Assembly (NCBI RefSeq): GCF_020564625.1
Contig: NZ_JAJBZT010000003.1
Coordinates: 62,001-126,000 of the forward strand
Direction of reading: 5' to 3'
Origin: Leeia speluncae
Lineage (GTDB): Bacteria; Pseudomonadota; Gammaproteobacteria; Burkholderiales; Leeiaceae
Length of the DNA stretch: 64,000 nucleotides
The translations under genes and the position numbers were made by a program. The number at the start of each line of letters is the position of its first letter. Within the stretch, counting starts at the first letter, position 1. The notes under the pieces were generated by a model, which had not been told where the DNA came from, did no database searches, and saw nothing but the letters and a program-made list of their open reading frames with translations. This document shows, piece after piece, positions 5,866 to 46,649 of this stretch.

Positions 5866-6627
5866 ATGGTCTTCTTCATGCCGTTTGCGTACTCCCGAAA
5901 ACTCACTGGCAATCTTCGCTCGAAAGAGGGCAACCGACATCTAGGGTTTATTCTCGCATTTGTCGCGGGCTTGATTAACGCCGGTGGTTTTTTGGCTGTT
6001 CACCAATACACATCACACATGACCGGTATTGTGTCTGCGATGGCAGATCATCTTGCCCTTGGCATGTATGGCTTGGTTTTTGCAGGTGTTGGCGCGCTCC
6101 TTTCTTTTCTATTAGGCGCGGCGAGTACTGCTGTGATGATCAACTATGCTAGACGCCACCATCAACTGACCGAGTTCGCCTTTCCCCTCTTGGTAGAAGC
6201 AGTATTATTGCTGGTGTTCGGACTACTTGGGGCGCAACTCTCTACCATCCACGGGTTTTATCTACCCATTACCGTGATGCTACTTTGCTTCATTATGGGT
6301 TTACAAAATGCGGTGATCACCAAAATATCGAAGGCGGAAATTCGTACCACGCATATCACCGGGATCATCACCGATATCGGGATTGAACTTGGCAAACTCT
6401 TTTACTGGAATCGTCACAAAGAATGGGCAGAGCCGCTAGTGGATGCGAATCATGATCGGCTAAAAGTATTGTGTTCACTTGCCGGGTTATTTTTTTCGGG
6501 TGGCGTTGTTGGTGCGCTCGGTTTTCATTACATGGGTTACCTCACTACTCTACCTATTGCGGCTGTCCTTCTCTTTTTGGCGATCGCCCCTACCATCGAT
6601 GCGTGGAAAGACTGGCGACAAAAATAG
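5866..6627 (+). CDS. YoaK-family (DUF1275) membrane protein
   Basis: The 253-residue protein has about six membrane spans and the DUF1275 hallmark FVAGLINAGGFLAV followed by the THITG motif (TTHITGIITDIGIELG). This family is widespread and of unknown function; transport has been suggested for relatives. The start could also be the ATG four codons later (5878). It sits alone between modE and the pirin gene, with no clear operon partner. Confidence 0.85.
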   Translation: MVFFMPFAYSRKLTGNLRSKEGNRHLGFILAFVAGLINAGGFLAVHQYTSHMTGIVSAMADHLALGMYGLVFAGVGALLSFLLGAASTAVMINYARRHHQLTEFAFPLLVEAVLLLVFGLLGAQLSTIHGFYLPITVMLLCFIMGLQNAVITKISKAEIRTTHITGIITDIGIELGKLFYWNRHKEWAEPLVDANHDRLKVLCSLAGLFFSGGVVGALGFHYMGYLTTLPIAAVLLFLAIAPTIDAWKDWRQK

Positions 6628-6736
6628 CGCACCATCCGTTCAAAGATTCTGACTGCGTCTATCAGAAAATCTAGACCAACTCTTTTGGTAGGATTGATAT
6701 GATCAACATTCATTTACAAGAAAGTTGAGCCAACCT

Positions 6737-7468
6737 ATGTCTACTACCGAATTCGAACACCGCCCAGCGAATGAACGCGGCATTGCCGACTTTGGCTGGT
6801 TGCATAGTAAACACACCTTCTCTTTTGGACACTATCGCGACTTAAACCAGCGTGGCTTTTCTGATCTATTAGTCATCAATGACGATACCGTGCATGGTGG
6901 TGGTGGCTTTCCTACGCACCCACATCGTGACATGGAAATTTTTTCTTACGTATTATCTGGTGCATTGGCGCACAAAGATTCGATGGGAAATGGCTCGGTG
7001 ATTGTGCCGGGTGACGTGCAGATGATGAGTGCAGGCACAGGCATTCGCCATAGCGAATACAACCATTCCGACACTGCAGACGTACACTTCCTACAAATTT
7101 GGATTGTGCCGAATCAAGAAAGCGTGACGCCCCGTTACCAACAAGTTAACTTTTCAGTAGCGGAAAAACGCGGCAAGCTGCGCACCATTATTTCGCCAGA
7201 AGGGGAAAATGGATCGCTTTCTGTTTATCAAGATGCGAAGGTACTGGCAGGTCTATTTGATGGAGATGAATCCGCCACTTACCAACCAGAAGGCGATCGC
7301 CATGTGTATATTCATGTTGCACAAGGGGAAGTAACCGTGAATGGCAACCGAATGGTGGAAGGCGATGGCGCACGGTTACGCCATGCAGAAGTAGTAGAAC
7401 TTAGCCAAGGCAAAGGCGCTGAAGTGTTATTATTTGATCTTCGACCTAACGAATATCCAAGCTTCTAA
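6737..7468 (+). CDS. Pirin-family bicupin protein (YhhW-like)
   Basis: The protein has about 243 residues from the ATG at 6737; a TTG four codons upstream is possible. The N-terminal cupin carries the pirin signature FPTHPHRDMEIFSYVLSG and the metal-binding His of IRHSEYN. The C-terminal cupin-like domain follows from about residue 150. Relatives such as E. coli YhhW show quercetin 2,3-dioxygenase activity in vitro, but the physiological role is unclear and pirins are often redox- or stress-linked. The next gene starts inside its stop codon (TAATG), implying coupled translation. Confidence 0.88.
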   Translation: MSTTEFEHRPANERGIADFGWLHSKHTFSFGHYRDLNQRGFSDLLVINDDTVHGGGGFPTHPHRDMEIFSYVLSGALAHKDSMGNGSVIVPGDVQMMSAGTGIRHSEYNHSDTADVHFLQIWIVPNQESVTPRYQQVNFSVAEKRGKLRTIISPEGENGSLSVYQDAKVLAGLFDGDESATYQPEGDRHVYIHVAQGEVTVNGNRMVEGDGARLRHAEVVELSQGKGAEVLLFDLRPNEYPSF

Positions 7469-7833
7469 TGACCAACGCCAACCCAGTGACGATTGAAACC
7501 ATCATCCAAAGACTAAGAGATTTTGCCAGCGAGCGGGACTGGGACCAGTTCCACTCGCCCAAAAACCTCGCCATGGCACTAACGGTAGAAGCCGCAGAAC
7601 TGCAAGAAATCTTCCAGTGGCTAACGCCAGAAGAAGCCGCCCACTTAGACCCCGCCCAGCACCAGCACGCCGCAGAAGAAATCGCGGACGTATTACTCTA
7701 CCTACTGCGTTTGTCCGACAAATTAGGGATTGATGTGTTGGATGCTGCCGTTAGCAAAATGGCAAAAAATGCGCTGAAATATCCGGTAGAGATGGCCAAG
7801 GGAAGTCATAAGAAGGCGTTGGGCGCGGAGTAA
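7468..7833 (+). CDS. MazG-like nucleotide pyrophosphohydrolase (dCTPase/RS21-C6 type)
   Basis: The 121-residue all-helical protein has the metal-binding pairs Glu41/Glu44 (EAAE) and Glu71/Asp74 (EIADVLLYLLRLSDKLGID) of single-domain MazG-like enzymes. These hydrolyse non-canonical or excess (d)NTPs to monophosphates as house-cleaning. It is translationally coupled to the pirin gene by a 1-nt overlap. The exact nucleotide preference cannot be read from sequence. Confidence 0.88.
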   Translation: MTNANPVTIETIIQRLRDFASERDWDQFHSPKNLAMALTVEAAELQEIFQWLTPEEAAHLDPAQHQHAAEEIADVLLYLLRLSDKLGIDVLDAAVSKMAKNALKYPVEMAKGSHKKALGAE

Positions 7834-7910
7834 CTCCTAATCTTAAATTTTAAATATGAATTTCACTTTTAAAGAGATACATATTTTTTCTTGAGAAAAG
7901 AACACAATTA

Positions 7911-8693
7911 ATGCTTTGCCGTCTCTGCAACACCGCTGGAAAATTTTCCAAGTCTCACATTATTCCAGAAGCTTTTTGGAGAGAGTTACGCATTGGAAAT
8001 GAAGCACCAATTCTAATTTCATCTCATGAAAACACCTACCCAAAACGTAGACCGATTGGAGTCTATGATTCCTCAATTCTTTGTGAAAAATGTGAGTCTA
8101 CATTTAATGATTTGGATAGCTACGGCATTGATATCCTTTTAAACAAACGCCACACATACTTTGAAGAGATATCTAGAAAAAATACAATTGAAGTAGGTTG
8201 GCATTCTAGTACGATAGACAACCACAAGCTGCTTGCATTTTTAGTCAGTATTTTGTGGAGAGCGTCGGTCTCATCAGATGAATTTTACGCAAAGGTCCAA
8301 CTTGGCCCTTTAGAAGAACTAGCCCGTCAAGTTGTTCTAAACCCAGAGTCAGAAATCCCTAGCATTTTTGATGCAGTTCTCTCTATTTGGAGAGATGACG
8401 AAATCAAAACAAGCCTTAAAAAGGCGATCATGGACCCATTTAAGGAAAAATGGGAGGGTGTAACTGCCTATCGTTTCTATCTCGGTAATATTGTTGCATA
8501 CATAAAAGCGGATCAACGAAACTTTCCAGAAAAATTCAGAAAATTTTCAATAAAAAAAGCTAAAACAACTTATCTAATTGCTCGCTCTTATGGAGAAAGT
8601 CATGATTTTGAAGCGCTTCATGAGACAGCAGCTAAATCTCATCAACACCAGTTCGCGAGAGATCTCTCAAAGAATTCCCTAAACCCTTCTTAG
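7911..8693 (+). CDS. HNH-like zinc-binding protein of unknown function
   Basis: The 260-residue protein begins MLCRLCNTAGKFSKSHIIPE and later has CEKC. Cys3/Cys6 and Cys58/Cys61 can form a zinc knuckle, and His16 followed by IIPE resembles the start of a treble-clef/HNH nuclease motif. The rest is helical with no recognised domain. Base composition is AT-richer than the flanking genes, and the ribosome site is weak. It may be a horizontally acquired nuclease or a nucleic-acid-binding protein. I do not recognise a named family with confidence. Confidence 0.6.
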   Translation: MLCRLCNTAGKFSKSHIIPEAFWRELRIGNEAPILISSHENTYPKRRPIGVYDSSILCEKCESTFNDLDSYGIDILLNKRHTYFEEISRKNTIEVGWHSSTIDNHKLLAFLVSILWRASVSSDEFYAKVQLGPLEELARQVVLNPESEIPSIFDAVLSIWRDDEIKTSLKKAIMDPFKEKWEGVTAYRFYLGNIVAYIKADQRNFPEKFRKFSIKKAKTTYLIARSYGESHDFEALHETAAKSHQHQFARDLSKNSLNPS

Positions 8694-9067: not shown

Positions 9068-12000
9068 TTAACCTAACCACTTACGTGCGTTATGGAACAT
9101 GGTTAGCCATGGGCCTTCGTCTGTCCATTCTGCAGGGTGCCAAGAGAAGTTCACCCCTTTCATGGTGCGCTCTGGGTGAGGCATCATGATCGTAAAGCGG
9201 CCATCTGGCGTTGTCACACCGGCAATCCCATTTGGAGAACCATTCGGGTTGTGCGGGTAAACGTCGGTTGGCAAGCCTTTGCTATCTACATATTGCAATG
9301 CAGTTAAACCTGCGTTTGCCGTTTGGTCACCCTCTTGGCGGAACCAAGCACGGCCTTCACCGTGAGAAACCACCATTGGTAAACGGCTACCAGCCATGCC
9401 TTGCAAGAAGATAGATGGGCTATTTGCCACTTCAGCCATCACCAAACGTGCTTCGTATTGCTCTGACGCGTTACGCACAAATTTTGGCCAGTTGTTTGCA
9501 CCCGGGATCAGTTCAAACAAGTTACTCATCATCTGGCAACCGTTACACACGCCAAGTGCAAAGCTGTCTGAACGCGCAAAGAACGCAGCAAATTCGTCAC
9601 GGGCACGTGCATTGAACAAGATAGACTTCGCCCAACCTTCACCCGCACCTAGAACGTCACCGTAAGAGAATCCACCACATGCCACTACACCAGCGAAGTC
9701 TTTCAGGCTAATACGGCCTTCGATCACATCGCTCATGTGTACGTCGACAGACTGGAAGCCTGCGGTATCAAACGCGGCGGCCATTTCTAGCTGACCGTTC
9801 ACACCTTGCTCACGCAAGATGGCCATTTTTGGTTTAGCACCAGAGCTAACAAATGGCGCAGCCAATGGGTATGTCACTTCTGCATACAAGCCACGGTCAG
9901 CTGTGTCGGTAATGCGAGCACGTTCTTGATCTGCGCAAACAGGGTTGTCACGCAGGCGCTGAATACGATAAGAAGTTTCAGACCAAGCAAGTTGCAGGTC
10001 TGCACGGGTTTCGTCTAGCAACACTTGGTCGCCTTGTTTCACCATTAGACGATCACTCGTATTTACCGCAGCCAAGTGGCTAGCAATGTCTGCTACACCG
10101 TTAATGGCCAAGATCGCTTGTACTTTCGCCAAGTCTGCTTGACGAACTTGCAGTACCGCACCCAACTCTTCGTTAAATAGCGCAGCCAATACATTGGCGT
10201 CTGCAGGCAGTTCAACGGTCGCTCCCAAGCGGCTAGCAAACATCATTTCCGCTACAGCAGCTAATGCACCACCGTCTGAACGATCGTGATAAGCCTGAAC
10301 CAAACCATCTGCGTTTAGTTGCTGCACGGCATTGAAGAAGCCTTTTAGTAGATCGGTGCTATCAACGTCTGGCGCTTCATTACCTACTTGTTTGTATACT
10401 TGCGCTAGTGCAGAGCCGCCCAAACGTGCTTTGCCGTTACCCAAATCTAGCAATAGCAATACGCTATCTTCACCTGCTTTTAGTTCTGGGGTTAAGGTCT
10501 TGCGCACATCGGTTGCTGGAGCAAATGCAGAGATGATCAGAGACAGTGGAGAGGTAACGGCTTTTGCTTCGCCATTTTCATTCCATACGGTCTTCATCGA
10601 TAGTGAATCCTTACCCACCGGGATGCTAATACCCAGTGCAGGACAAATCTCCATACCGACGGTTTTCACGGTATCAAACAAATTAGCATCTTCACCAGGG
10701 TGGCCAGCAGCAGCCATCCAGTTAGCAGATAGTTTGATATCGCCTAATTTTGCGATTGGTGCAGCCGCAATGTTGGTCAACGCTTCACCAATTGCCATAC
10801 GGCCAGAGGCTGGTGCATCGATCAATGCCACAGGGGTACGCTCACCCATGGCCATTGCTTCGCCTAGCCAAGTTTTGTAACCCATCATGGTCACGGCAAC
10901 GTCTGCTACCGGCACTTGCCATGGGCCAACCAACTGGTCACGTGCAGTCAAACCACCCACGGTACGGTCACCGATGGTAATCAGGAACGATTTGTCAGCA
11001 ACCGCTGGCAAACGCAAGACACGGTAAACCGCTTCTTTTAAGGTAACGCCATCAAAATTCAGGGCTGGCAACTCACGCGCCACACGTTTTACGTCACGTG
11101 TCATGCGGGGTGGCTTACCTAGCAATACATCCATTTCCATATCAACAGCTGGCGTGCCTAGTAGGCTATCTTCTACTTTGAGCTGTTTTTCGGCCGTTGC
11201 GTGGCCAATTACGGCAAATGGGCAACGCTCACGTTCGGCAAAGCCACGGAATAATTCAAGTGAATCTGGATGAATCGCTAATACATAGCGTTCTTGCGAT
11301 TCGTTACACCAAATTTCTTTTGGTGCCATCGCTTTTTCTTCGATCTGAATATCACGCAGTTGGAACACCGCACCGCGCTCAGAACCGTGAGCCAATTCTG
11401 GCATCGCATTAGAGATACCACCTGCACCCACGTCATGGATACTTAGGATTGGGTTGTTGTCACCCAACTGCCAGCAACGGTCGATCACTTCTTGTGCACG
11501 ACGTTGCATTTCCGGGTTGCCACGCTGTACCGAATCGAAGTCTAGGTTGGCTGCGTTTGAACCTGTGTCCATCGAAGACGCGGCGCCACCACCCAAACCA
11601 ATTAACATACCTGGCCCACCCAATTGGATCAGCAAGGCACCTGGAATCACTTCTTTCTTGAACGAGTGACGGTCATCGATATTACCCATACCGCCAGCAA
11701 TCATAATTGGCTTGTGGTAACCACGGCGTTCGCCATCCACGGTTTCTTCGAAGGTACGGAAGTAACCTGCCAAGTTCGGACGGCCAAATTCGTTATTGAA
11801 CGCTGCAGCACCAATCGGGCCATCAATCATGATCTGTAGCGGGGTAACGATACGGTCTGGCTTGCCATAACCTTCTTCGCTACCTTCAACCACTTCCCAA
11901 GGCTGTACAGCATCTGGCAAGTTCAGGTTAGAAACAGTAAAACCACACAAACCAGACTTTGGCTTAGAACCGATACCGGTTGCGCCTTCGTCACGAATCT

Positions 12001-36916: not shown

Positions 36917-37465
36917 TTACGCGACTTGTCTTCTTGCCACCATCTGGCCAGAAATCACTGCTAATTGCGCAGCATTCAGAAGCCTTGCTGCGTGCGGATA
37001 CACAAGCTCCTCTTCCTCTTTCGCATGTTGCAAATAGTTCATTGCAAAACGCGTTGCAACGCCATCATGGTTAAGCGCAATCGAGAAGCCTTCCGACAAC
37101 GCTTTTAGACGCTGACGAACCGCCTGCCAATCGTTATACATACGAGAATGCTCGGCTTCCAATCTTGCCATAGCAGACAAAACAGCGACTTCTTCGCTAT
37201 CCCCCTTAATCGCTTCTTTCAGGGCTGGAAATAAATCTTCTTCCTCATCATGGTGATGAGCAGGTGCAGCCTGATCAAAATAACGCAGAATATTAGCTGC
37301 AGATTGCATCGCGTCCGGGCAATTGCCTTCCAACTCTAAATGACTCACCAAGCGAATCAAGTTCTGGCAAAACTTACGGATGCGACCGTGACAAGCCTCT
37401 AGCATTTCTAGAGGAGTCTCCAAAGAGGGTATTTCTTCATGCAACAGCAATTTGAACTCCTTCAT
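36917..37465 (-). CDS. Hemerythrin-like HHE domain protein
   Basis: The 182-residue helical protein has di-iron ligand motifs at CHGRIRKF (His26), HHHDEEEDLFPAL (about 70-82), AEHSRMYNDW and HAKEEEELVYPHA. Such proteins bind oxygen or NO or repair iron centres. Its start lies 29 nt inside the end of the flavin oxidoreductase gene, with GGAACAGG just before the ATG, so the two are translationally coupled. The FNR-like box upstream of the pair agrees with an oxygen- or NO-related role. Confidence 0.88.
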   Translation of the reverse strand: MKEFKLLLHEEIPSLETPLEMLEACHGRIRKFCQNLIRLVSHLELEGNCPDAMQSAANILRYFDQAAPAHHHDEEEDLFPALKEAIKGDSEEVAVLSAMARLEAEHSRMYNDWQAVRQRLKALSEGFSIALNHDGVATRFAMNYLQHAKEEEELVYPHAARLLNAAQLAVISGQMVARRQVA

Positions 37466-38633
37466 CCTGTTCCAACTGAGGCATTACACCATTCAGCAGG
37501 TAATTAATTAGCTCTCTCACAGGACGAACTGCGTTACCAAATGGCAACGATTCGGATCCTCTGAAGAACAGCCCCTTGCTGATCTCCCCTTTTAATGCTG
37601 CAGCCAGTTGTGAATCGATACAAAACTGACCGATTTTGGCAATCCCATCGCGTAATCCACACGCAGACAAACAATTTAGTCCAGTGGTACAACGAGAGGC
37701 ATCACATTTTGCCTTTGACTGCAGGAAGCTTTCACGCTTCAGATAGTTTTTTAACCATGGTGTTAATACACCGCGAGCAGGCAAACCAGCCACACTCATA
37801 AATTCAACAATATCATCCTTGCCAGCACCCGCTAGCACAGACTTAAAGTTTGGATGCGCATCGCCTTCTTGAGAAACGGCAAACGCAGTGCCTAATTGCA
37901 CACCAGAGGCCCCCCAACGGAACACATCTTGCACTTTGTCGTAACTATTAATCCCACCAGCAACAATCAGTGGGATCTCATTTTCAATGCCCATTTCGCG
38001 GAATAATTCCAGCGTACCTTCTAGCACAACATCAAAATCAAATTTACGATCACCCAAATCATCAATTTTGGCAGCACCTAAGTGGCCACCCGCAAACTTT
38101 GGATGCTCGATCACAATCGCATCTGGCTTACGGCCTTTTTTCATCCATTTTTTCAGCACCAGCGCAATGCCACGTACTTCTGACAAAATCGGAATCAACG
38201 CCACATTCGGGTGATCTGCAGCCATTTCAGGCAAATCAAACGGCAAACCAGCACCCATTACGATTGCATCTGCACCGCTTTCGCAGGCTTGACGAACATA
38301 GCGCGCATGGTCTGCAACCGCCTTCATCACGTTCACCGCAATTAAACCATTACCGCCAGATAATGCTTTTGCCGCTTTAATCTCACGATCTAACGCCGTT
38401 AAATTCGCTTGATTAAGTATTTCTTGGTCCCGTACACGGTGACACATCTCTAACAAATCAGGATGGTGGTGTTTTAAATCCACACTTGCCAATGTACCAA
38501 CAGCCCCTTCTCTCGCAACGCTGCCAGCAAGGCTATGCGCAGACACCCCTACGCCCATACCCCCTTGGACTACCGGCAAAACCGACTTGCCACGTAGGCG
38601 CAACAAAGGGAAAGGAGAACTGATCTGAGACAT
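37437..38633 (-). CDS. Nitronate monooxygenase / FabK-like flavin oxidoreductase with Cys cluster
   Basis: The 398-residue TIM-barrel enzyme has FMN-binding elements VQGGMGVGVS, the HLGAAKI region, VAGGINSYDKVQDVFRWGASGVQLGTAF and the family His (HPKFAGGH). It differs from plain nitronate monooxygenases by a Cys-rich stretch with Cys310, 315, 321, 325 and 338 (KCDASRCTTGLNCLSACG), which could hold an Fe-S cluster. The true substrate is unknown. It is transcribed first in the pair with hemerythrin. Confidence 0.87.
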   Translation of the reverse strand: MSQISSPFPLLRLRGKSVLPVVQGGMGVGVSAHSLAGSVAREGAVGTLASVDLKHHHPDLLEMCHRVRDQEILNQANLTALDREIKAAKALSGGNGLIAVNVMKAVADHARYVRQACESGADAIVMGAGLPFDLPEMAADHPNVALIPILSEVRGIALVLKKWMKKGRKPDAIVIEHPKFAGGHLGAAKIDDLGDRKFDFDVVLEGTLELFREMGIENEIPLIVAGGINSYDKVQDVFRWGASGVQLGTAFAVSQEGDAHPNFKSVLAGAGKDDIVEFMSVAGLPARGVLTPWLKNYLKRESFLQSKAKCDASRCTTGLNCLSACGLRDGIAKIGQFCIDSQLAAALKGEISKGLFFRGSESLPFGNAVRPVRELINYLLNGVMPQLEQDEGVQIAVA

Positions 38634-38705
38634 AAGAGCCTTTCAAAAAGAGTATTTCTAACTAATCATCTTTAATTAGAATGCCAGCAAAACAATTTAA
38701 CTGTA

Positions 38706-38719
38706 TTGAGTTGTATCAA
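38706..38719 (-). promoter_or_regulatory. FNR/ANR-like box
   Basis: On the minus strand TTGATACAACTCAA differs from TTGAT-N4-ATCAA at one position. Its centre is 79.5 bp before the flavin-oxidoreductase start. CATTCT, 22 nt downstream, sits where a class II -10 should be. Confidence 0.5.
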
Positions 38720-38893
38720 AAAAGCAGAATAGACATTCTTCACGAAAGCAAAGAAAGCACAGGCAACCAAGATTTAATGACAAAGATTTACAACATAAAC
38801 ATATAAATCAATTACTTATCAGATGATTGTAACGGACTTAGTTGATAACACAGTATACTAATGGTCAAAAGAACGTCAGTTGGGATATAAAAA

Positions 38894-40303
38894 TTGCAAG
38901 CAATTGTAGCCTTCACCACTATTGTCGGCGCTGCGAATGTACTCACCCAAGCAGCAGAAGTTGCCCCATATTGCCAAGATTGGCGTGGTCGTTACCACGG
39001 TTCTGTTATGGCAGTGATTCGCCCGGCAACCACAGATGAAGTCTCTAAAGTGGTGCAGTATTGCCACGCCAATCATATTTATGTAATCCCGCAAGGTGGA
39101 AACACCGGTCATTGCGGTGGTGCAGCCCCCACCCAACACACGCCAGCCATCATTCTATCTTTAAGCCGGTTAAACCACATTCACTGTATTGATACAGAAA
39201 ACCAAACCATTACCGTTGGCGCTGGTTGTACACTTGGCCAAATCCAGACCATCGCCAGCCAGCATGATCGTCTCTTTCCCCTATCATTAGCGGCAGAAGG
39301 CAGCTGCCAAATTGGCGGCAATTTATCGACCAATGCGGGTGGTGTTCAAGTTTTACGCTATGGCAATATGCGCGACCTTACCTTGGGCTTAGAGGTGGTT
39401 TTGCCAGATGGTAACGTTTTAAACTCACTGAGCGGGTTACGCAAAGACAATACCGGCCTAGATATCAAACAGTTGTTTATTGGTGCAGAAGGCACGCTAG
39501 GTATTATCACAGCCGCAACGCTTAAGTTATTCCCTGCCATCAAACATCAAACCACAGCACTTATCTCACTCGCATCGCCATCCGACGCCGTGCAGCTATT
39601 AAATGCAGCGCAATTGCAATTTGGAGATCGACTCACCGCGTATGAGTTGATCTCTCATATTTGCATGGGCTTAGTCACACAGCACATTCCCGGCGCAAAA
39701 TTACCGCTAAGCGAAACAAATGAGTGGTATGTTTTAATGGAGGTATCAGACACGTGGGAGCACTCCCCGCTTACCGAGATGGTGGAAAGTTTCCTAATGA
39801 ACCAAACTAGCGTGATTGATGCCGTCATCGCCCAAAGTTTGCAACAAACCCAAGCATTGTGGACATTAAGAGAATCTATTTCAGAAGCGCAGAAAAAAGA
39901 TGGGCTATCGATTAAACACGATATTTCTGTACCTACCTCACAGATGGAACACTTTATTCAAGTCACCAGTCGCATCCTACAAGAAGATCAGGCAGATTAT
40001 CGATTACAGATTTTTGGGCATCTGGGAGATGGCAATTTACATTTTAATGTAGGAAAGGCACCCGAAAGCCAATTGGACCTCGTGCCACTGGAAAAGCATA
40101 TTAATCATCTGGTGTACGAACAAGTAAAGCAAGTAAATGGCTCTATTAGTGCAGAGCATGGCATCGGACAATTAAAAAACAACGAACTACCGCGATATGC
40201 AGATCCGGTTAAAATTGCCCTCATGCAACAAATTAAACAGGCACTAGACCCACAAGGCATCATGAATCCCGGCAAGGTTTACCCAAGCTCTTCAGCTAGC
40301 TAA
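38894..40303 (+). CDS. FAD-linked oxidase, GlcD/D-2-hydroxyacid dehydrogenase type
   Basis: The 469-residue flavoprotein has an FAD_binding_4 domain (VIPQGGNTGHCGGAAPT, then EGSCQIGGNLSTNAGGVQVLRYG) and a C-terminal FAD-oxidase domain (HLGDGNLHFNV, EHGIGQLKN, GIMNPGKVYP). It probably oxidises a D-2-hydroxyacid such as D-lactate, glycolate or D-2-hydroxyglutarate. No upstream ATG fits the frame, so the start appears to be TTG at 38894; the first ATG is at residue 39, inside the domain. The stop overlaps the convergent flavoprotein gene by 8 nt. Confidence 0.9.
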   Translation: MQAIVAFTTIVGAANVLTQAAEVAPYCQDWRGRYHGSVMAVIRPATTDEVSKVVQYCHANHIYVIPQGGNTGHCGGAAPTQHTPAIILSLSRLNHIHCIDTENQTITVGAGCTLGQIQTIASQHDRLFPLSLAAEGSCQIGGNLSTNAGGVQVLRYGNMRDLTLGLEVVLPDGNVLNSLSGLRKDNTGLDIKQLFIGAEGTLGIITAATLKLFPAIKHQTTALISLASPSDAVQLLNAAQLQFGDRLTAYELISHICMGLVTQHIPGAKLPLSETNEWYVLMEVSDTWEHSPLTEMVESFLMNQTSVIDAVIAQSLQQTQALWTLRESISEAQKKDGLSIKHDISVPTSQMEHFIQVTSRILQEDQADYRLQIFGHLGDGNLHFNVGKAPESQLDLVPLEKHINHLVYEQVKQVNGSISAEHGIGQLKNNELPRYADPVKIALMQQIKQALDPQGIMNPGKVYPSSSAS

Positions 40304-41900
40304 CGCGACCTAGTATTTTATCGGCCGCACGGTAGCCCCACCAAGCGGCCTCTTCAAACACCGAATAGCCAGATAAATCTGAATGTGCAAAAAGGACTCG
40401 CCCACTTTGTGCGCGAAGCTGCTTCAACCCTTCATTACTTAAAAAACCGGGAGTGGGAGTGGCCATTGCGTGTGCGCGCACGCTAATCTCTGCGCGTGCC
40501 AAACGACGATAAAGTTGATGTTTATCGTAAACCAGCTCTAAATCTACCATTGCTGATGCAAAGAGCTCATCTTCAGTTGCTTCTGCTAACCACTCCCTCG
40601 CTTTTTTCGCGTCATCAAAAGGGAGAGTCCGGTATGCGGTGAACACGGTCTTTTCAGGCCGGTATTGCCGAATCCATTGGTGCGTCGCTACGACATATCC
40701 TAACCCTTCGCTTCCAGAAACGATATTGTCCCAAGCAAGCGTTTCACCAGGCTTCTCTTCTGGAAAATCATCCAAGATAAAGTTAGTCACTAACCAAGGA
40801 GAATGCACCGGCATATGCTGTTTATCATCAAAGCCAAATGCATTTAATGGCAACAGATGCTTCGTCACGTGGAGCGGCATCGCCATCACCACTCGATCGG
40901 ACTCTATTCGATATTTCTCAGTTGGTGTTTGTATATAGACAGCAACGTTTTCACCCTTCAGTTCTACTTTCATTGCCATACCATCTCGCAATTGATGAGG
41001 GGCTAATTTGGCTGCCATCCACGAGGCGGGTTTACCCAATCCCTCAGGCCAAGTCAGTAATCCACCATCAGCAGCATTCGCGGCATGCCCATCACGACCG
41101 GCAAAATAATGAATCCCCGCCCACGCTGAAACATGTTTTAGCCCTGCGCCATAATCATCTCGGCAGGCATAGTCCAAATAGTCGAGTAAATGCGGATGCG
41201 TAAACTGCTGGCTTACTAGCCATTCTTGAAAAGTCAGCTTATCTAAATGATGCCAACGGGTATCAGAAGACAGTTGAGCAATCGGCATATCAAATAACCG
41301 CTTTCCATCCTGCCCCAATTGATTCTTTAGCGAATCAACCAATAGAAAAAAACGTTGAAACTGTTTCTTCGCCTCGTCGGCATTAAGAAATAAGCCCTCC
41401 TGCCAACTCGCAGATTGAGGATCAAATATTCTTTCATCAGGAGAGTGTAAGATCGCCCGTTCATCATAATATGGTGCTTTTCCATAGACATCTTTTTGGC
41501 TAATGCCCATCTCTGCAAGCAACTCTCTCACATGCACCGAGCTTAAAGACGGAAAAGGTAAATAGTGGGCCCCTTTTGGGTATAACATTCCCTCGCCAGC
41601 ATCGCCAAACGCAGCGTTACCATAACGTTCTGGCCCGGTGATTACCACAAAGTCATGAAAACCCGCTTTGTCCAATTGCCAAGCACACGTCAACCCAGCA
41701 ATCCCACTTCCTAAAATCACAACGGGGAGACGTTCTTTTAATGGAAAGTCAGCAGCACGCCAAGGCTCACGCACTTGGTGTCCTTGCTTCATCCCGACTC
41801 GATCCACCGTGATGTCTGGCAACCGTTCTTGCCAACGCCATTTAGCACCAACCGTCCCTAAAGCAGCAGCGCCCAAAAAGAAAAATTGGCGACGATTCAT
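40296..41900 (-). CDS. Tat-exported FAD-dependent amine-oxidase-like protein
   Basis: The protein has 534 residues from the ATG at 41900, which overlaps the stop of the spermidine-synthase-like gene (TAATG). It begins with a twin-arginine signal (MNRRQFFFLGAAALGTVGA) and has the dinucleotide motif VVILGSGIAGLTCAWQLDKAGF at about residues 59-80. The C-terminal FAD-closing segment is GRVLFAHSDLSGYSVFEEAAWWG. The fold is that of flavin amine oxidases or desaturase-like enzymes. Coupling to a polyamine-type synthase suggests an amine or aminopropyl product as substrate; this is inference. Confidence 0.85.
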   Translation of the reverse strand: MNRRQFFFLGAAALGTVGAKWRWQERLPDITVDRVGMKQGHQVREPWRAADFPLKERLPVVILGSGIAGLTCAWQLDKAGFHDFVVITGPERYGNAAFGDAGEGMLYPKGAHYLPFPSLSSVHVRELLAEMGISQKDVYGKAPYYDERAILHSPDERIFDPQSASWQEGLFLNADEAKKQFQRFFLLVDSLKNQLGQDGKRLFDMPIAQLSSDTRWHHLDKLTFQEWLVSQQFTHPHLLDYLDYACRDDYGAGLKHVSAWAGIHYFAGRDGHAANAADGGLLTWPEGLGKPASWMAAKLAPHQLRDGMAMKVELKGENVAVYIQTPTEKYRIESDRVVMAMPLHVTKHLLPLNAFGFDDKQHMPVHSPWLVTNFILDDFPEEKPGETLAWDNIVSGSEGLGYVVATHQWIRQYRPEKTVFTAYRTLPFDDAKKAREWLAEATEDELFASAMVDLELVYDKHQLYRRLARAEISVRAHAMATPTPGFLSNEGLKQLRAQSGRVLFAHSDLSGYSVFEEAAWWGYRAADKILGRVS

Positions 41901-43411
41901 TATCGAATAACCTGATGCCAATCTTGCTCAAAATAATGAACCAAAGATTGATTATCTAACCGGTTAGGAATCATCTTCATCGGTTTCATATCCGCCGGAA
42001 AACTAAACATACGTTTTGTTTCCACAGGGTCTAAGTAGCGCAGTGGAATCGCATACTGATTTGGCGGAACAAAGTCGGCGGTCTTACCCGCCAAGATATA
42101 GCCCCATTCTCCAAAAGAAGGGACATACGTATGGTATGGCCATGTATTCAAGCCCGCCTCTTTTAACGTCGCATCAATACACCAATAAGAACGCGGCGCA
42201 AAATACGGGGAAGTAGACTGCACGACTAAGCGGCCGTGCCAAGCCAAATGCTTTTGCATTAACTCGAACATCGGCACGGAATACAACTTACCCAGTGCAT
42301 AATTAGAAGGATCGGGGAAATCCACAATAATGGCGTCAAACATCTCTGTATTCGACTCCAACCATTGCCCCGCATCTTGATTAAATACTTTTACTCTTGG
42401 ATTCGTCAGTGAATGCTGATTAAGCTTTACCAAACGCTCTGCCGTGCTAAATAACTTTGTCATTTCCGGATCAAGATCCACCAGCACCACTTGTTTAATA
42501 TTTGGGTACTTTAAGATTTCCCGCACAGCTAAACCATCACCGCCACCAAGCACCAACACTCGTTTCGCCCAAGGCTGGCTAGATAACAGCGGATGCACCA
42601 AAGACTCATGATATCGATGCTCATCTTTGGAAGAGAACTGCAAATTTCCATTGATATACAAGCGCAAATCATCTTTCCATTGCGTTACCACTAATCTCTG
42701 GTAGGGGCTCGTATGAGAAAAAATGGTTTCATCGCCAAACAAGCCTTTTTCAGCCCATTTGGTTAATTGATCCGCGGAAACAAACGCAAGAATCAGCCCC
42801 CCGAGAATCACCCCACCGCGCACCCGCTTGGCTGTTACTTGTTTTATCTGCGCCTGAAAACAGTGAGCTGTCCACAACGCAATTAGTACATTAAAAATAC
42901 CAAATAATAATCCAGTACGGATCATGCCTAAATGCGGTGCCAGCACCAGCGGAAAAAGCAAGGAAACCGCCAACGCACCAAGGTAATCAAACGTAAGTAC
43001 TCGGCTAACCAAGTCTTTCAATGCCAGTTGCTGACGATCTAATACCCGCATGACGAGTGGAATCTCCATCCCTACGCCCATCCCAATCAGCAATACTAAC
43101 GCATATAAAACAGAGCGAAATGGTGAAGACAACCACGCGAAAACAGCAAACAGAATTAATGCAGAAATACCGCCAATTAAACCAATCAACAACTCAATAT
43201 CAATAAACCGACTGAGTGCATCTTCATCTTTAATATACTTAGAGCAATGCGAACCTATCCCCATTGCAAATAAATAGCATCCAATGACACTGGAAAACTG
43301 TAAGAGCGAATCCCCTAGCAAGTAGCTAGACATTGCCCCTGCGATTAACTCATACGCCAAGCCACAAGACGCAACAATAAAGACAGAAAAGACTAACAAA
43401 CGATCAAGCAT
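41900..43411 (-). CDS. Membrane-anchored spermidine-synthase-like aminopropyltransferase
   Basis: The 503-residue protein has two parts. About seven or eight membrane spans occupy residues 1-215. A spermidine-synthase-type Rossmann domain follows from about 235 (YQRL 237-240, VLVLGGGDGLAVREIL with the SAM loop at 289-293, VDLDPEM, and catalytic IIVDFPDPSN with Asp364/Asp366). The enzyme would transfer aminopropyl from decarboxylated SAM. It is divergent from the DUF350-SPFH-DUF4178 operon. No speD lies nearby. Confidence 0.9.
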   Translation of the reverse strand: MLDRLLVFSVFIVASCGLAYELIAGAMSSYLLGDSLLQFSSVIGCYLFAMGIGSHCSKYIKDEDALSRFIDIELLIGLIGGISALILFAVFAWLSSPFRSVLYALVLLIGMGVGMEIPLVMRVLDRQQLALKDLVSRVLTFDYLGALAVSLLFPLVLAPHLGMIRTGLLFGIFNVLIALWTAHCFQAQIKQVTAKRVRGGVILGGLILAFVSADQLTKWAEKGLFGDETIFSHTSPYQRLVVTQWKDDLRLYINGNLQFSSKDEHRYHESLVHPLLSSQPWAKRVLVLGGGDGLAVREILKYPNIKQVVLVDLDPEMTKLFSTAERLVKLNQHSLTNPRVKVFNQDAGQWLESNTEMFDAIIVDFPDPSNYALGKLYSVPMFELMQKHLAWHGRLVVQSTSPYFAPRSYWCIDATLKEAGLNTWPYHTYVPSFGEWGYILAGKTADFVPPNQYAIPLRYLDPVETKRMFSFPADMKPMKMIPNRLDNQSLVHYFEQDWHQVIR

Positions 43412-43554
43412 TCAGTAACGGCATCCAACAAATAAGGCAAAATCAACCACGATTCGCGATTAAAGGGCGAAAAAAGTGCGTTGCTGGTTTGCCAAATAAA
43501 AAATAAACCGATAGCATAACCCTAATAACCATATTTCGCACAAGGAAATACAGT
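43412..43554. promoter_or_regulatory. Divergent promoter spacer of the polyamine/SPFH cluster
   Basis: This 143-bp spacer lies between the two divergent arms. AAGGAA at about 43541-43546 is the ribosome site of the DUF350 gene. CAACCACGATTCGCGATTAAAG near 43444-43465 contains a short imperfect repeat (ATTCGCGATTAAAG). No clear operator is seen. Confidence 0.3.
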
Positions 43555-43947
43555 ATGCATCTACCTGGTATTTCAAGTTATCTCGTCTTTTTACTCAGTG
43601 GCTTTGGCCTGTTGCTAGCATTCATGCTCATCTACACAAAAACCACGGTCATTAACGAGTTTCAATTAATCAAAGAAGGCAACATTGCAGCCGCCTTATC
43701 TTTGGCTGGTGCCGTACTAGGCTTTAGCCTCACCTTAGCATCCAGTGCACTACATAGTAATGGCATTGTGCCTTATCTTCTGTGGGCTTCAGTTGCCATG
43801 GTCATCCAACTATTAACCTACCTACTGGTTAGCCGCTGTTTCCCGACCTTAAACACGGAATTAGCCAATAATAACGCTGCCATGGGCCTGTTAGTGGGCA
43901 CCATCTCACTCACCACTGGCATCATTAATGCGGCTTGCCTGTCTTAA
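43555..43947 (+). CDS. DUF350 membrane protein (YjfL-like)
   Basis: The 130-residue protein has four predicted membrane spans. The pattern FQLIKEGNIAAALSLAGAVLGFSLTLASS, repeated in part as NNNAAMGLLVGTISLTTGIINAA, is the DUF350 duplication. DUF350 proteins such as E. coli YjfL are small inner-membrane proteins of unknown function, often near polyamine/ATP-grasp or phage-shock-type genes. It is first in the plus-strand arm of the cluster and has a good AAGGAA ribosome site. Confidence 0.88.
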   Translation: MHLPGISSYLVFLLSGFGLLLAFMLIYTKTTVINEFQLIKEGNIAAALSLAGAVLGFSLTLASSALHSNGIVPYLLWASVAMVIQLLTYLLVSRCFPTLNTELANNNAAMGLLVGTISLTTGIINAACLS

Positions 43948-43994
43948 GTAAGCGTGCCTAGACAACATCGCCCCCATACACAAGAAAGATCAAT

Positions 43995-45026
43995 ATGAGC
44001 ATCGGATCATTTATTAAGAAGCAATTTATTGACATTCTGCATTGGACAGAAGAAGTAGATGGTGTGCTCTCTTGGCGCTATCCGATGCAGGATTTTGAGA
44101 TTCAATACGGAGCAAGCCTCACCGTTAGAGAGTCGCAAATCGCCATTTTTGTGAATGAAGGCAAAATTGCGGATGTATTTGGGCCAGGTACCTACAAGCT
44201 AACCACCCAAACCCTACCTGTACTTACTTACCTGAAAAACTGGGATAAACTTTTTGAATCCCCATTTAAATCAGATGTGTACTTCTTTAGCACCCGACTT
44301 CAATTAGGTCGAAAATGGGGCACACCACAACCGGTCACCATCCGAGACAAAGATTTTGGCATGGTCAGACTACGTGCGTTTGGCATGTATTCTTACAAAT
44401 TGGTGGATGCAGAAAAATTCCACAAAGAGATTAGCGGTACACGAGAAAGCTATTCCAGAGAGGACCTAGAACAACAGCTTCGAAACCTAGTGGTTAGCTC
44501 ATTAACGGCCACCTTAGGTGGTAGTAATGTCCCATTTTTAGACATGGCTGCCAATCAGTTAGAAACTGGCAATCTGGTCAAAGCCAATCTAAGCGCTGCA
44601 TTTGAACAATATGGCTTTGCTTTAGATAACTTTGCCATTGAAAACATCTCCCTACCGGAAGAACTCCAAAAAGCGATCGACACCCGCATCTCCATGGGCA
44701 TGATTGGCAATATGGGCACTTATACTCAATACCAAACCGCACAGGCCATTCCATTAGCAGCACAAAATGAAGGTGGCTTAGCAGGCATGGGAGCAAGCTT
44801 AGGTGCGGGTTTACAAGTGGGCCAGGTGATGGCACAAGCATTACAGCCGAACCTACAACCTACAGCGCCAATGCCAAGTGCATCAGTAGTAGCAGCCCCT
44901 ACCTCACCTACTGAAGACTTAGAAGCTAATTTGCTCAAAATGAAAAGCCTCCTAGATAAGGGCTTAATCACACAAGCAGATTACGATACGGCCAAAGCTG
45001 AAATCCTTAAAAAACTAATCGGGTAA
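43995..45026 (+). CDS. SPFH-domain protein with C-terminal SHOCT motif
   Basis: The 343-residue protein begins with a segment shared with proteins annotated as virion-core-like SPFH (FIKKQFIDILHWTEEVDGVLSWRYPMQDFEIQYGASLTVRESQ). An SPFH/stomatin-like region follows to about residue 215, then an Ala/Gly/Pro-rich linker and a SHOCT helix hairpin (LLKMKSLLDKGLITQADYDTAKAEILKKL) at 310-343. There is no membrane span. SHOCT motifs often guide oligomerisation or membrane recruitment. It lies between DUF350 and DUF4178. Confidence 0.85.
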   Translation: MSIGSFIKKQFIDILHWTEEVDGVLSWRYPMQDFEIQYGASLTVRESQIAIFVNEGKIADVFGPGTYKLTTQTLPVLTYLKNWDKLFESPFKSDVYFFSTRLQLGRKWGTPQPVTIRDKDFGMVRLRAFGMYSYKLVDAEKFHKEISGTRESYSREDLEQQLRNLVVSSLTATLGGSNVPFLDMAANQLETGNLVKANLSAAFEQYGFALDNFAIENISLPEELQKAIDTRISMGMIGNMGTYTQYQTAQAIPLAAQNEGGLAGMGASLGAGLQVGQVMAQALQPNLQPTAPMPSASVVAAPTSPTEDLEANLLKMKSLLDKGLITQADYDTAKAEILKKLIG

Positions 45027-45033
45027 TGGATTA

Positions 45034-46479
45034 ATGTTTCAGACCGCTTGTCCCTCTTGTGGGGCACCCGTTTCATTTCGCTCAGCAACATCCGCGATGG
45101 CAGTATGCGAATATTGTCAAACCACGATATTGCAACATGGTGCTTCAGTCGAAATGGCCGGCAAAATGTCGGCCATTCTAGAGGACTACTCACCAATACA
45201 AATAGGTACAAGTGGCATCTTTAACGGCAATGCCTTCCAAACGATTGGGCGTATTCAGCTTCGATACGAAGATGGCTTCTGGAATGAGTGGTACATCTGG
45301 TTTGATGATGGCACGACAGGCTGGCTATCAGATGCTAGTAATCAGTTTGTCATTACCCTTTCTGATGGCGAAGTAAGCAATCCACCCACCTTTGAATCGC
45401 TCATTCCGGGAAGCATTTTCTCGCACAAACAGTCCTTATTTATTGCTAGCGATGTTCGCACTGCACGCTGCACGTCCGGCGAAGGTGAATTACCGTTTGT
45501 CGTCGCAGAAGGTTGGGAGTTGAAGGCTGCTGATTTTCGCTCCAGAAACCTCTTTCTGACGCTCGATTATAGCGAATCAACCTCGCCAGAATGCTTTGTC
45601 GGTAAGGCCGGATCTGTTGAGGAGTTCAAACTACAGAATTTACGTACAGACGACATCATTGCGGAAAAAGCTGGTCGAATCAAAAATAAACTAAGTAGTC
45701 TTAGTTGCCCGGCTTGCGGTAGTGCTATCCAATTTGTTCCTGGCGTTGCCGCTCAGTTGGTTTGTCCTTCGTGCCAGTCCACGATCGACGCCACACCAGA
45801 ACAAGCGGTGATCCTATCCAAAAAGAAAGCAGAAGCATCGGTCTTTTCGACGCTGAAATTAGGGGATGTTGCCACCATACTTGGCATTAAATACACCTTA
45901 ATTGGCTGCATGCGATGCCTAGAAGTAGGCGAAGAGAATAGCAACTGGTGGGAATACCTACTCTTCCATCCAAGGAAAGGTTTTCTCTGGTTGGTTGAGT
46001 CAGATTCGGGATGGGAACAGGTAAACGTGCTGAACAACTGGCCTGCAAAACAATCAGGCAAAGAAGTGAATTACAACAGCCTAAGTTATCAGCATTTATA
46101 TGACTACCAATCCAAAGTCACATACGCAGCTGGGGCATTTAACTGGCGTGTCAATATTGGAGACACCTCACACATCAGCGATTTTGGTAAAGGTGATCAA
46201 AAGCTAACCCTAGAAAAAACAGAGAATGAGCTATCTTGGAGCTTAGCAAAAAAATTACCGGCTAAAACCGTTGGCGCATGGTTTGGTCAAACGCTAGAAG
46301 AAACGGCCCAATCAACAGAGGACAACTCAGCTGAATTAATAGAAATCGCAAAGGTCTTTTCTTTCCTGTTTGTCATGGCAAACGTTGTACTCCAAGATGA
46401 GCTAGCCATTGGCACCATCATTTTGGGACTCGTACTGCTATGGATCCCTGTGCTATTTGCTAAACTAATAGTGAAGTAA
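45034..46479 (+). CDS. DUF4178 protein with two zinc ribbons
   Basis: The 481-residue protein has an N-terminal zinc ribbon (Cys6/Cys9...Cys25/Cys28), a DUF4178 domain (about 45-190), a second ribbon (Cys225/Cys228...Cys244/Cys247), a second DUF4178-like domain (about 270-420) and two C-terminal membrane spans near 440-478. The ribbon-plus-DUF4178 unit is thus duplicated. The function is unknown. Its start is 7 bp after the SPFH gene, so it is co-transcribed. Confidence 0.87.
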   Translation: MFQTACPSCGAPVSFRSATSAMAVCEYCQTTILQHGASVEMAGKMSAILEDYSPIQIGTSGIFNGNAFQTIGRIQLRYEDGFWNEWYIWFDDGTTGWLSDASNQFVITLSDGEVSNPPTFESLIPGSIFSHKQSLFIASDVRTARCTSGEGELPFVVAEGWELKAADFRSRNLFLTLDYSESTSPECFVGKAGSVEEFKLQNLRTDDIIAEKAGRIKNKLSSLSCPACGSAIQFVPGVAAQLVCPSCQSTIDATPEQAVILSKKKAEASVFSTLKLGDVATILGIKYTLIGCMRCLEVGEENSNWWEYLLFHPRKGFLWLVESDSGWEQVNVLNNWPAKQSGKEVNYNSLSYQHLYDYQSKVTYAAGAFNWRVNIGDTSHISDFGKGDQKLTLEKTENELSWSLAKKLPAKTVGAWFGQTLEETAQSTEDNSAELIEIAKVFSFLFVMANVVLQDELAIGTIILGLVLLWIPVLFAKLIVK

Positions 46480-46481
46480 CG

Positions 46482-46649
46482 ATGACGAAACTGGTTTATA
46501 TTCTTTACGCTATCGCCATTTCTTGCAGCTTGACGCTCTACAACGTCAAAACAAATAACGATCACTCAACCTACAGAAGCTGGGGGCGAAGTGGCAGTAA
46601 CTCAGGCATGTCTAGTGGCGACTGGTATTCGGGTGGACATCACAAATAG
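46482..46649 (+). CDS. 55-residue membrane-anchored Ser/Gly/His-rich protein
   Basis: An ATG lies 2 nt after the DUF4178 stop. The product begins MTKLVYILYAIAISCSLTLY, a single hydrophobic segment that could be a signal anchor. It then has a 35-residue polar tail rich in Ser, Gly, Trp and His, ending WYSGGHHK. The position and coupling make it the fourth gene of the operon. I recognise no family, but the tail recalls small proteins that end such clusters. Confidence 0.65.
   Translation: MTKLVYILYAIAISCSLTLYNVKTNNDHSTYRSWGRSGSNSGMSSGDWYSGGHHK

Follow-up and report, generated by a model that had tools for sequence, protein, structure and literature searches.

Operons that encode a seven-transmembrane (7-TM) spermine-synthase-like protein together with DUF350 and DUF4178 proteins were described by Ravi et al. 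2024 (PMC11237479), with a variant that adds a Band-7-SHOCT protein, an AdoMet decarboxylase and a polyamine oxidase. Those authors link such operons, as a proposal, to membrane dynamics, to polyamine level or to the aminopropylation of other substrates. A second group of clusters, exemplified by yjfI-yjfC and ygiB-ygiC of Escherichia coli, contains ATP-grasp enzymes: RefSeq names YjfC and YgiC peptide--spermidine ligase, a naming that traces to Pederick et al. 2023 (cited in PMC12568646). The neighbours of these enzymes, YjfM and YgiB, end in GG, and we infer that they are the ligase substrates. The likeness between the E. coli clusters and the one described here lies in DUF350 (yjfL), a membrane-anchored protein with a Gly/Ser-rich tail, a polyamine-linked enzyme and a PspA-type partner.

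Here we analyse a locus of Leeia speluncae that shares with the Band-7-SHOCT variant of Ravi et al. the synthase, DUF350, DUF4178, Band-7-SHOCT and oxidase families. Whereas that variant has the AdoMet decarboxylase in its operon, the Leeia locus has no local speD; compared with the neighbourhoods in the same study, it also lacks the PspA/CesT pair, and its SPFH protein lacks extra TM segments. The first-pass annotation of this DNA had presented the locus as a candidate undescribed system with a small peptide as an extra. The set of genes is real and co-conserved; its novelty does not stand, as the neighbourhood is already in Ravi et al. 2024, nor does the secondary place given to the peptide. 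What is already known is the gene set, and what is new is the strict C-terminal lysine of the peptide, the most informative conservation in the cluster. The peptide is not discussed by Ravi et al., in whose main text the word 'lysine' is absent, and in the literature searched we found no description of the strict C-terminal lysine and no use of the term aminopropyllysine.

A divergent six-gene locus in Leeia speluncae

The window is a 64,000-nt stretch of the Leeia speluncae contig NZ_JAJBZT010000003.1, and positions below are window coordinates. The six genes lie in two divergent arms, 143 nt apart:

40296..41900, minus strand: Tat-exported FAD protein with a polyamine-oxidase fold, proposed tip editor (Amino_oxidase; twin-arginine R3; AF2 fold)
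41900..43411, minus strand: 7-TM domain (residues 2-211) and C-terminal spermidine-synthase domain (about 227-503), proposed writer (NF002956; AF2; fold match)
43412..43554, no strand: divergent intergenic region (ORF coordinates)
43555..43947, plus strand: DUF350 membrane protein (PF03994, 112.6 bits)
43995..45026, plus strand: SPFH/Band-7 protein with C-terminal SHOCT (PF13421, 260 bits; SHOCT, 26.8 bits)
45034..46479, plus strand: two zinc ribbon-DUF4178 units and a C-terminal membrane segment (PF13785 in two stretches, 84.2 bits; hydropathy)
46482..46649, plus strand: 55-aa membrane peptide with a Gly/Ser-rich tail ending ...YSGGHHK, proposed acceptor (position; Lys-ending homologues)
46644..46646, plus strand: terminal-lysine codon of the 55-aa peptide, proposed modification site (last codon before the stop)

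All six open reading frames of the first-pass annotation are real and have the coordinates it claimed, and the tight spacing it described was reproduced (a 1-nt overlap, and gaps of 7 and 2 nt). Its family assignments were borne out by profile searches, which returned Amino_oxidase, Spermine_synth, DUF350, Band_7_1 and two DUF4178 matches; the SHOCT match of the SPFH protein falls marginally under the cut-off (26.8 versus 27 bits). The flavoprotein has an alternative TTG start at 41921 on the minus strand. No family matched the 55-aa ORF in profile searches, NCBIfam included, and PspA had no match among the six window proteins; a PspA-like cluster occurs in gamma-type sister loci. An envelope-stress role for the cluster is suggested by its context.

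Across genomes, the neighbourhood is conserved far above chance expectation, in keeping with the co-conservation that had been put forward. A scan with the synthase alignment gave at least 581 relatives, of which the best 80 were retained, and about 35 betaproteobacterial loci have the same divergent layout. In the operon of most relatives, speD is the usual seventh gene, 3′ of the peptide.

On the side of the flavoprotein, the interval 36917-40303 holds an overlapping pair, a hemerythrin-domain gene and a nitronate monooxygenase-like gene, and beside them a GlcD-type FAD-linked oxidase that is convergent with the flavoprotein and overlaps its 3′ end by 8 nt. Control by sigma-54, which has been reported for the bac operon of P. 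aeruginosa, was considered and rejected: the intergenic region 43412-43554 has no site at two or fewer mismatches, and the number of sigma-54-like matches at this threshold across the window barely exceeds chance. Anti-phage defence was rejected too, with no credible PADLOC match; the single match, to the synthase, spans only the methyltransferase-like fold.

A strict C-terminal lysine on diverse tails

Defining a tail gene as any small membrane ORF that starts -10 to +65 nt from the DUF4178 stop, we found one in 60 of 66 loci with a terminal lysine in all 60, counts that, like the other tail counts given here, come from related sequences within clades and are not independent events. Each of the six loci missed by the position rule also has a small Lys-ended ORF. 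The 58 distinct peptides found by position end in HK (47) or GK (11); a terminal Lys was found in 4.5%, and a GK or HK end in 0.6%, of the other recurrent ORFs of the same loci (n = 621). The body of the tail differs wholly by clade, from Gly/Ser-rich in Burkholderiales to NPGAYRS...RYFGGK in Acidobacteria, while the final lysine is constant, and alphaproteobacterial tails fit the pattern (GPSHK in Novosphingobium, ESGK in Ensifer).

The same ending is found on other carriers. Operons without the peptide have a lipoprotein that ends in the same way, from families of 240-510 aa (12 members) and 193-215 aa (3 members), and blastp between the bodies of these two families gave no match at 1e-3. 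In the seven Bacteroidota loci examined once the Lys-end pattern had been noted, the tail is a peptide ending FYHK in one, a lipoprotein ending FGK in four and part of a fused DUF4178 protein ending SGSHK in another; the last locus has a GG tail. In some synthase loci, no tail gene was found nearby. In the tail evidence, more weight lies on how the ending recurs from clade to clade and from one carrier family to another than on the counts; a strict C-terminus can also reflect recognition instead of modification.

A Bacteroidota DUF4178 protein (L164, genome G403, 10195-11589) has three predicted TM segments and ends ...VSGSHK, the tail being apparently fused; no separate peptide gene was seen in this locus.

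Tail ends beside ATP-grasp ligases

The E. coli clusters use an ATP-grasp ligase and a tail ending in GG, whereas the window cluster has an aminopropyltransferase and a tail ending in HK. The Leeia speluncae genome has no PF03738 match, that is, no GSP_synth ATP-grasp enzyme, and the window tail, which ends HHK, lacks the GG-type ending of the YjfC/YgiC systems. Among 31 distinct tails beside ATP-grasp ligases in the sampled genomes, chosen by eye as Gly/Ser-rich with unrelated upstream ORFs left out, there is no terminal Lys, and the last residue is Gly or Ser in 30. The Bacteroidota locus with the GG tail has both enzymes: next to the synthase, it encodes an ATP-grasp enzyme resembling glutathionylspermidine synthetase (E = 1e-75), as well as SpeD. 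With Lys beside the synthase and Gly/Ser beside the ATP-grasp ligase, the tail terminus tracks the type of enzyme, as would be expected if the terminus were the site of action.

Several further arrangements were seen on the ligase side. In L165 (G465, Bacteroidota), an operon at 6120-8242 encodes SpeD, a GSP_synth ligase and a TM protein ending ...RSYGG and is divergent to a membrane synthase, which places both polyamine branches within a single locus. In the Bacteroidota loci L185 and L187, a DUF350-like membrane protein precedes weak GSP_synth genes and no tail gene was seen, perhaps a third arrangement. An SRGGFG-like internal motif recurs 10-25 residues before the C-terminus of ligase-side tails (L170-L218) and may be a recognition element.

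The membrane synthase and its aminopropyl donor

The synthase matches NF002956, polyamine aminopropyltransferase, over residues 3-501 at 683 bits (cut-off 472). In its AF2 model (pLDDT 88.5), seven TM helices are followed by a short linker helix and then by a spermidine-synthase fold, so that of the 'seven-to-eight-span anchor' first described, the membrane anchor stands and the eighth span does not. The synthase domain matches the fold of 1uir (E = 1e-16), and its likeness to soluble spermidine and triamine/agmatine aminopropyltransferases (1uir, 1inl) covers the fold, the donor site and the catalytic aspartates. Residues Q238, Q258, D292, D364 and D367 are invariant and align with the donor-binding and catalytic positions of solved enzymes. 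Where enzymes of the 1uir/1inl type have an acceptor-side loop, however, the membrane synthase has a shorter loop, PSFGEWG, as well as the 7-TM domain. In the literature on the mycobacterial homologue Rv2601, we found no functional test.

The even-numbered loops of the membrane domain carry a mean of 9.9 Lys/Arg and the odd-numbered loops 2.4, with even exceeding odd in 46 of 46 sequences, and the same loop-charge pattern is found in divergent gamma-type proteins. By the positive-inside rule, this charge would put the N-terminus inside and the synthase domain outside, and we predict that the domain is extracytoplasmic; dcSAM (decarboxylated SAM), a cytosolic donor, would then have to cross the membrane to reach the outer face. 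The lipoprotein tails are extracytoplasmic, as, probably, is the fused DUF4178 tail, and the small peptides have a weak charge bias. Where the lipoprotein tails lie speaks weakly for an outside synthase domain, since ATP-using ligases likewise pair with lipoproteins. All catalytic parts may thus lie on the outer face of the membrane.

The only speD of Leeia speluncae is in an operon with a soluble speE on contig C1; speD adjacency is absent in the closest congener and present in another. Among 148 Bacteroidota genomes, SpeD is found in 8 of 8 with the membrane synthase versus 25 of 140 without it (Fisher p = 2.9e-6). For five of these eight genomes, speD belongs to the cluster and the membrane synthase is the sole credible aminopropyltransferase (other PF01564 matches are weak). 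The remaining three encode SpeD at another site, within an ORF that has a Spermine_synth match as well, an arrangement resembling that of the window genome. The membrane synthase very probably uses dcSAM.

Two more proteins are encoded in the soluble speE-speD operon (L035, 7146-9477 of contig C1). One, of 233 aa, has a C-terminal TM segment but matches nothing in Pfam; the other, of 190 aa, probably has a signal peptide and matches DUF4178 below the threshold (E = 7e-4), which hints at a second link between DUF4178 and polyamines.

The exported flavoprotein

The flavoprotein matches Amino_oxidase at 51.7 bits (cut-off 19.8). The Tat export signal claimed for it is upheld by its homologues: R3 of the twin-arginine motif is invariant in 28, and the strict pattern occurs in 49 of 62 sequences. 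Its AF2 model (pLDDT 91.3) is most similar to putrescine oxidase, at Z 28.5 and rmsd 3.5 over 424 residues; the P. aeruginosa spermidine dehydrogenase SpdH (Z about 26) and monoamine oxidases follow closely. These matches are near-tied, and the fold by itself gives no substrate. Although the fold is common to Pseudomonas aeruginosa SpdH and Rhodococcus putrescine oxidase, identity to the flavoprotein is only 14-18%. Enzymes of the MAO/PAO type have a conserved Lys near flavin N5, and in the 28-sequence alignment no Lys column reaches 90% conservation. We rejected a canonical polyamine oxidase on this ground: the fold agrees, but the conserved Lys is missing. The flavoprotein is itself missing from several lineages.

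A proposed protein polyamine-tipping system

We propose, at a probability of roughly 45%, that the cluster is a protein polyamine-tipping system in which a dcSAM-dependent synthase writes on the terminal lysine of the peptide and the flavoprotein edits. SpeD, here encoded elsewhere, would make dcSAM, from which the 7-TM synthase would move the aminopropyl group onto the lysine that ends the membrane-anchored Gly/Ser-rich tail. The aminobutyl side chain of this lysine would be a built-in putrescine mimic, and its aminopropylation would yield N-epsilon-(3-aminopropyl)lysine, a spermidine bound to protein. In the periplasm, the Tat-exported flavoprotein would oxidise or take off the tip, while the SPFH-SHOCT, DUF350 and DUF4178 proteins would form a membrane scaffold that organises the complex. 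The analysis itself shows the gene set, the folds, the strict terminal Lys and how it follows enzyme type, the co-occurrence with speD and the Tat signal; what we infer in this scheme is which acceptor is used and what product results, that the synthase domain lies outside, what the oxidase acts on and which physiological role the system has. The order of events suggested in the first-pass annotation, a membrane enzyme making an aminopropylated product on which a periplasmic oxidase acts, is the direction favoured by the operonic speD of relatives and by the oxidase fold.

Gly-aminopropyl-lysine is closely similar to Gly-spermidine, which the sister ligase is expected to produce, and a polyamine-tipped membrane tail would thus be the outcome of either branch. 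Like deoxyhypusine on eIF5A, the proposed product would be a polyamine-extended lysine. In deoxyhypusine, however, spermidine donates an aminobutyl group to eIF5A, whereas the proposal has an aminopropyl group passing from dcSAM to the C-terminal lysine of a membrane tail. More tentatively, the system would represent a new post-translational modification, in which a membrane-embedded dcSAM transferase at the outer face of the inner membrane adds an aminopropyl group to the lysine that ends an anchored peptide or lipoprotein tail, and a periplasmic flavoenzyme edits it.

Other readings of the cluster

In the main rival to polyamine tipping, the 7-TM domain holds the acceptor that the synthase aminopropylates, either a lipid of the membrane or a small molecule other than a polyamine; the Lys peptide goes unmodified and serves docking or stability, as a tag that DUF4178, SPFH or the synthase recognises. 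The TM part is indeed conserved like the catalytic part (0.68 versus 0.70) and has invariant polar residues, recognition by itself could fix a C-terminus, and Ravi et al. 2024 (PMC11237479) commit to no substrate. This reading nevertheless fails to predict that tails end in Gly or Ser by ATP-grasp ligases and in Lys by the synthase, or that the same end appears on unrelated carriers, and we regard it as rather unlikely, if a serious contender.

A simpler enzymology, an ordinary membrane-tethered spermidine synthase that possibly exports its product to a flavoprotein acting as a periplasmic polyamine oxidase, is in line with the NF002956 annotation, the intact catalytic residues and the nearest folds of the flavoprotein, putrescine oxidase and spermidine dehydrogenase. 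It is improbable given that the genome already has a separate soluble SpeE-SpeD operon and that related membrane fusions reportedly do not complement a spermidine synthase mutant, and it leaves the tail unexplained. The tail is addressed directly, and with slightly lower probability still, by a reading that makes the peptide a structural or sensor subunit whose HK/GK end binds a metal or cofactor. HK ends on 47 of the 58 distinct peptides, the zinc ribbons of the adjoining DUF4178 protein and the description of DUF1190 as a metal-chelating lipoprotein by Ravi et al. (PMC11237479) point that way, but in whole clades and in lipoproteins Gly replaces His and the Lys is retained.

Implications

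Membrane spermidine-synthase-like proteins occur in hundreds of genomes from several phyla (at least 581 relatives), and the terminal-lysine rule gives a concrete, one-residue acceptor candidate for these synthases. If the polyamine-tipping proposal is true, it would account for the presence of polyamine genes next to PspA, SPFH and DUF350, would imply a dcSAM-using enzyme at the outer side of the membrane and would provide a bacterial counterpart of deoxyhypusine. Together with the ATP-grasp ligase clusters, these loci would then form a two-branched family of protein polyamine-tipping systems.
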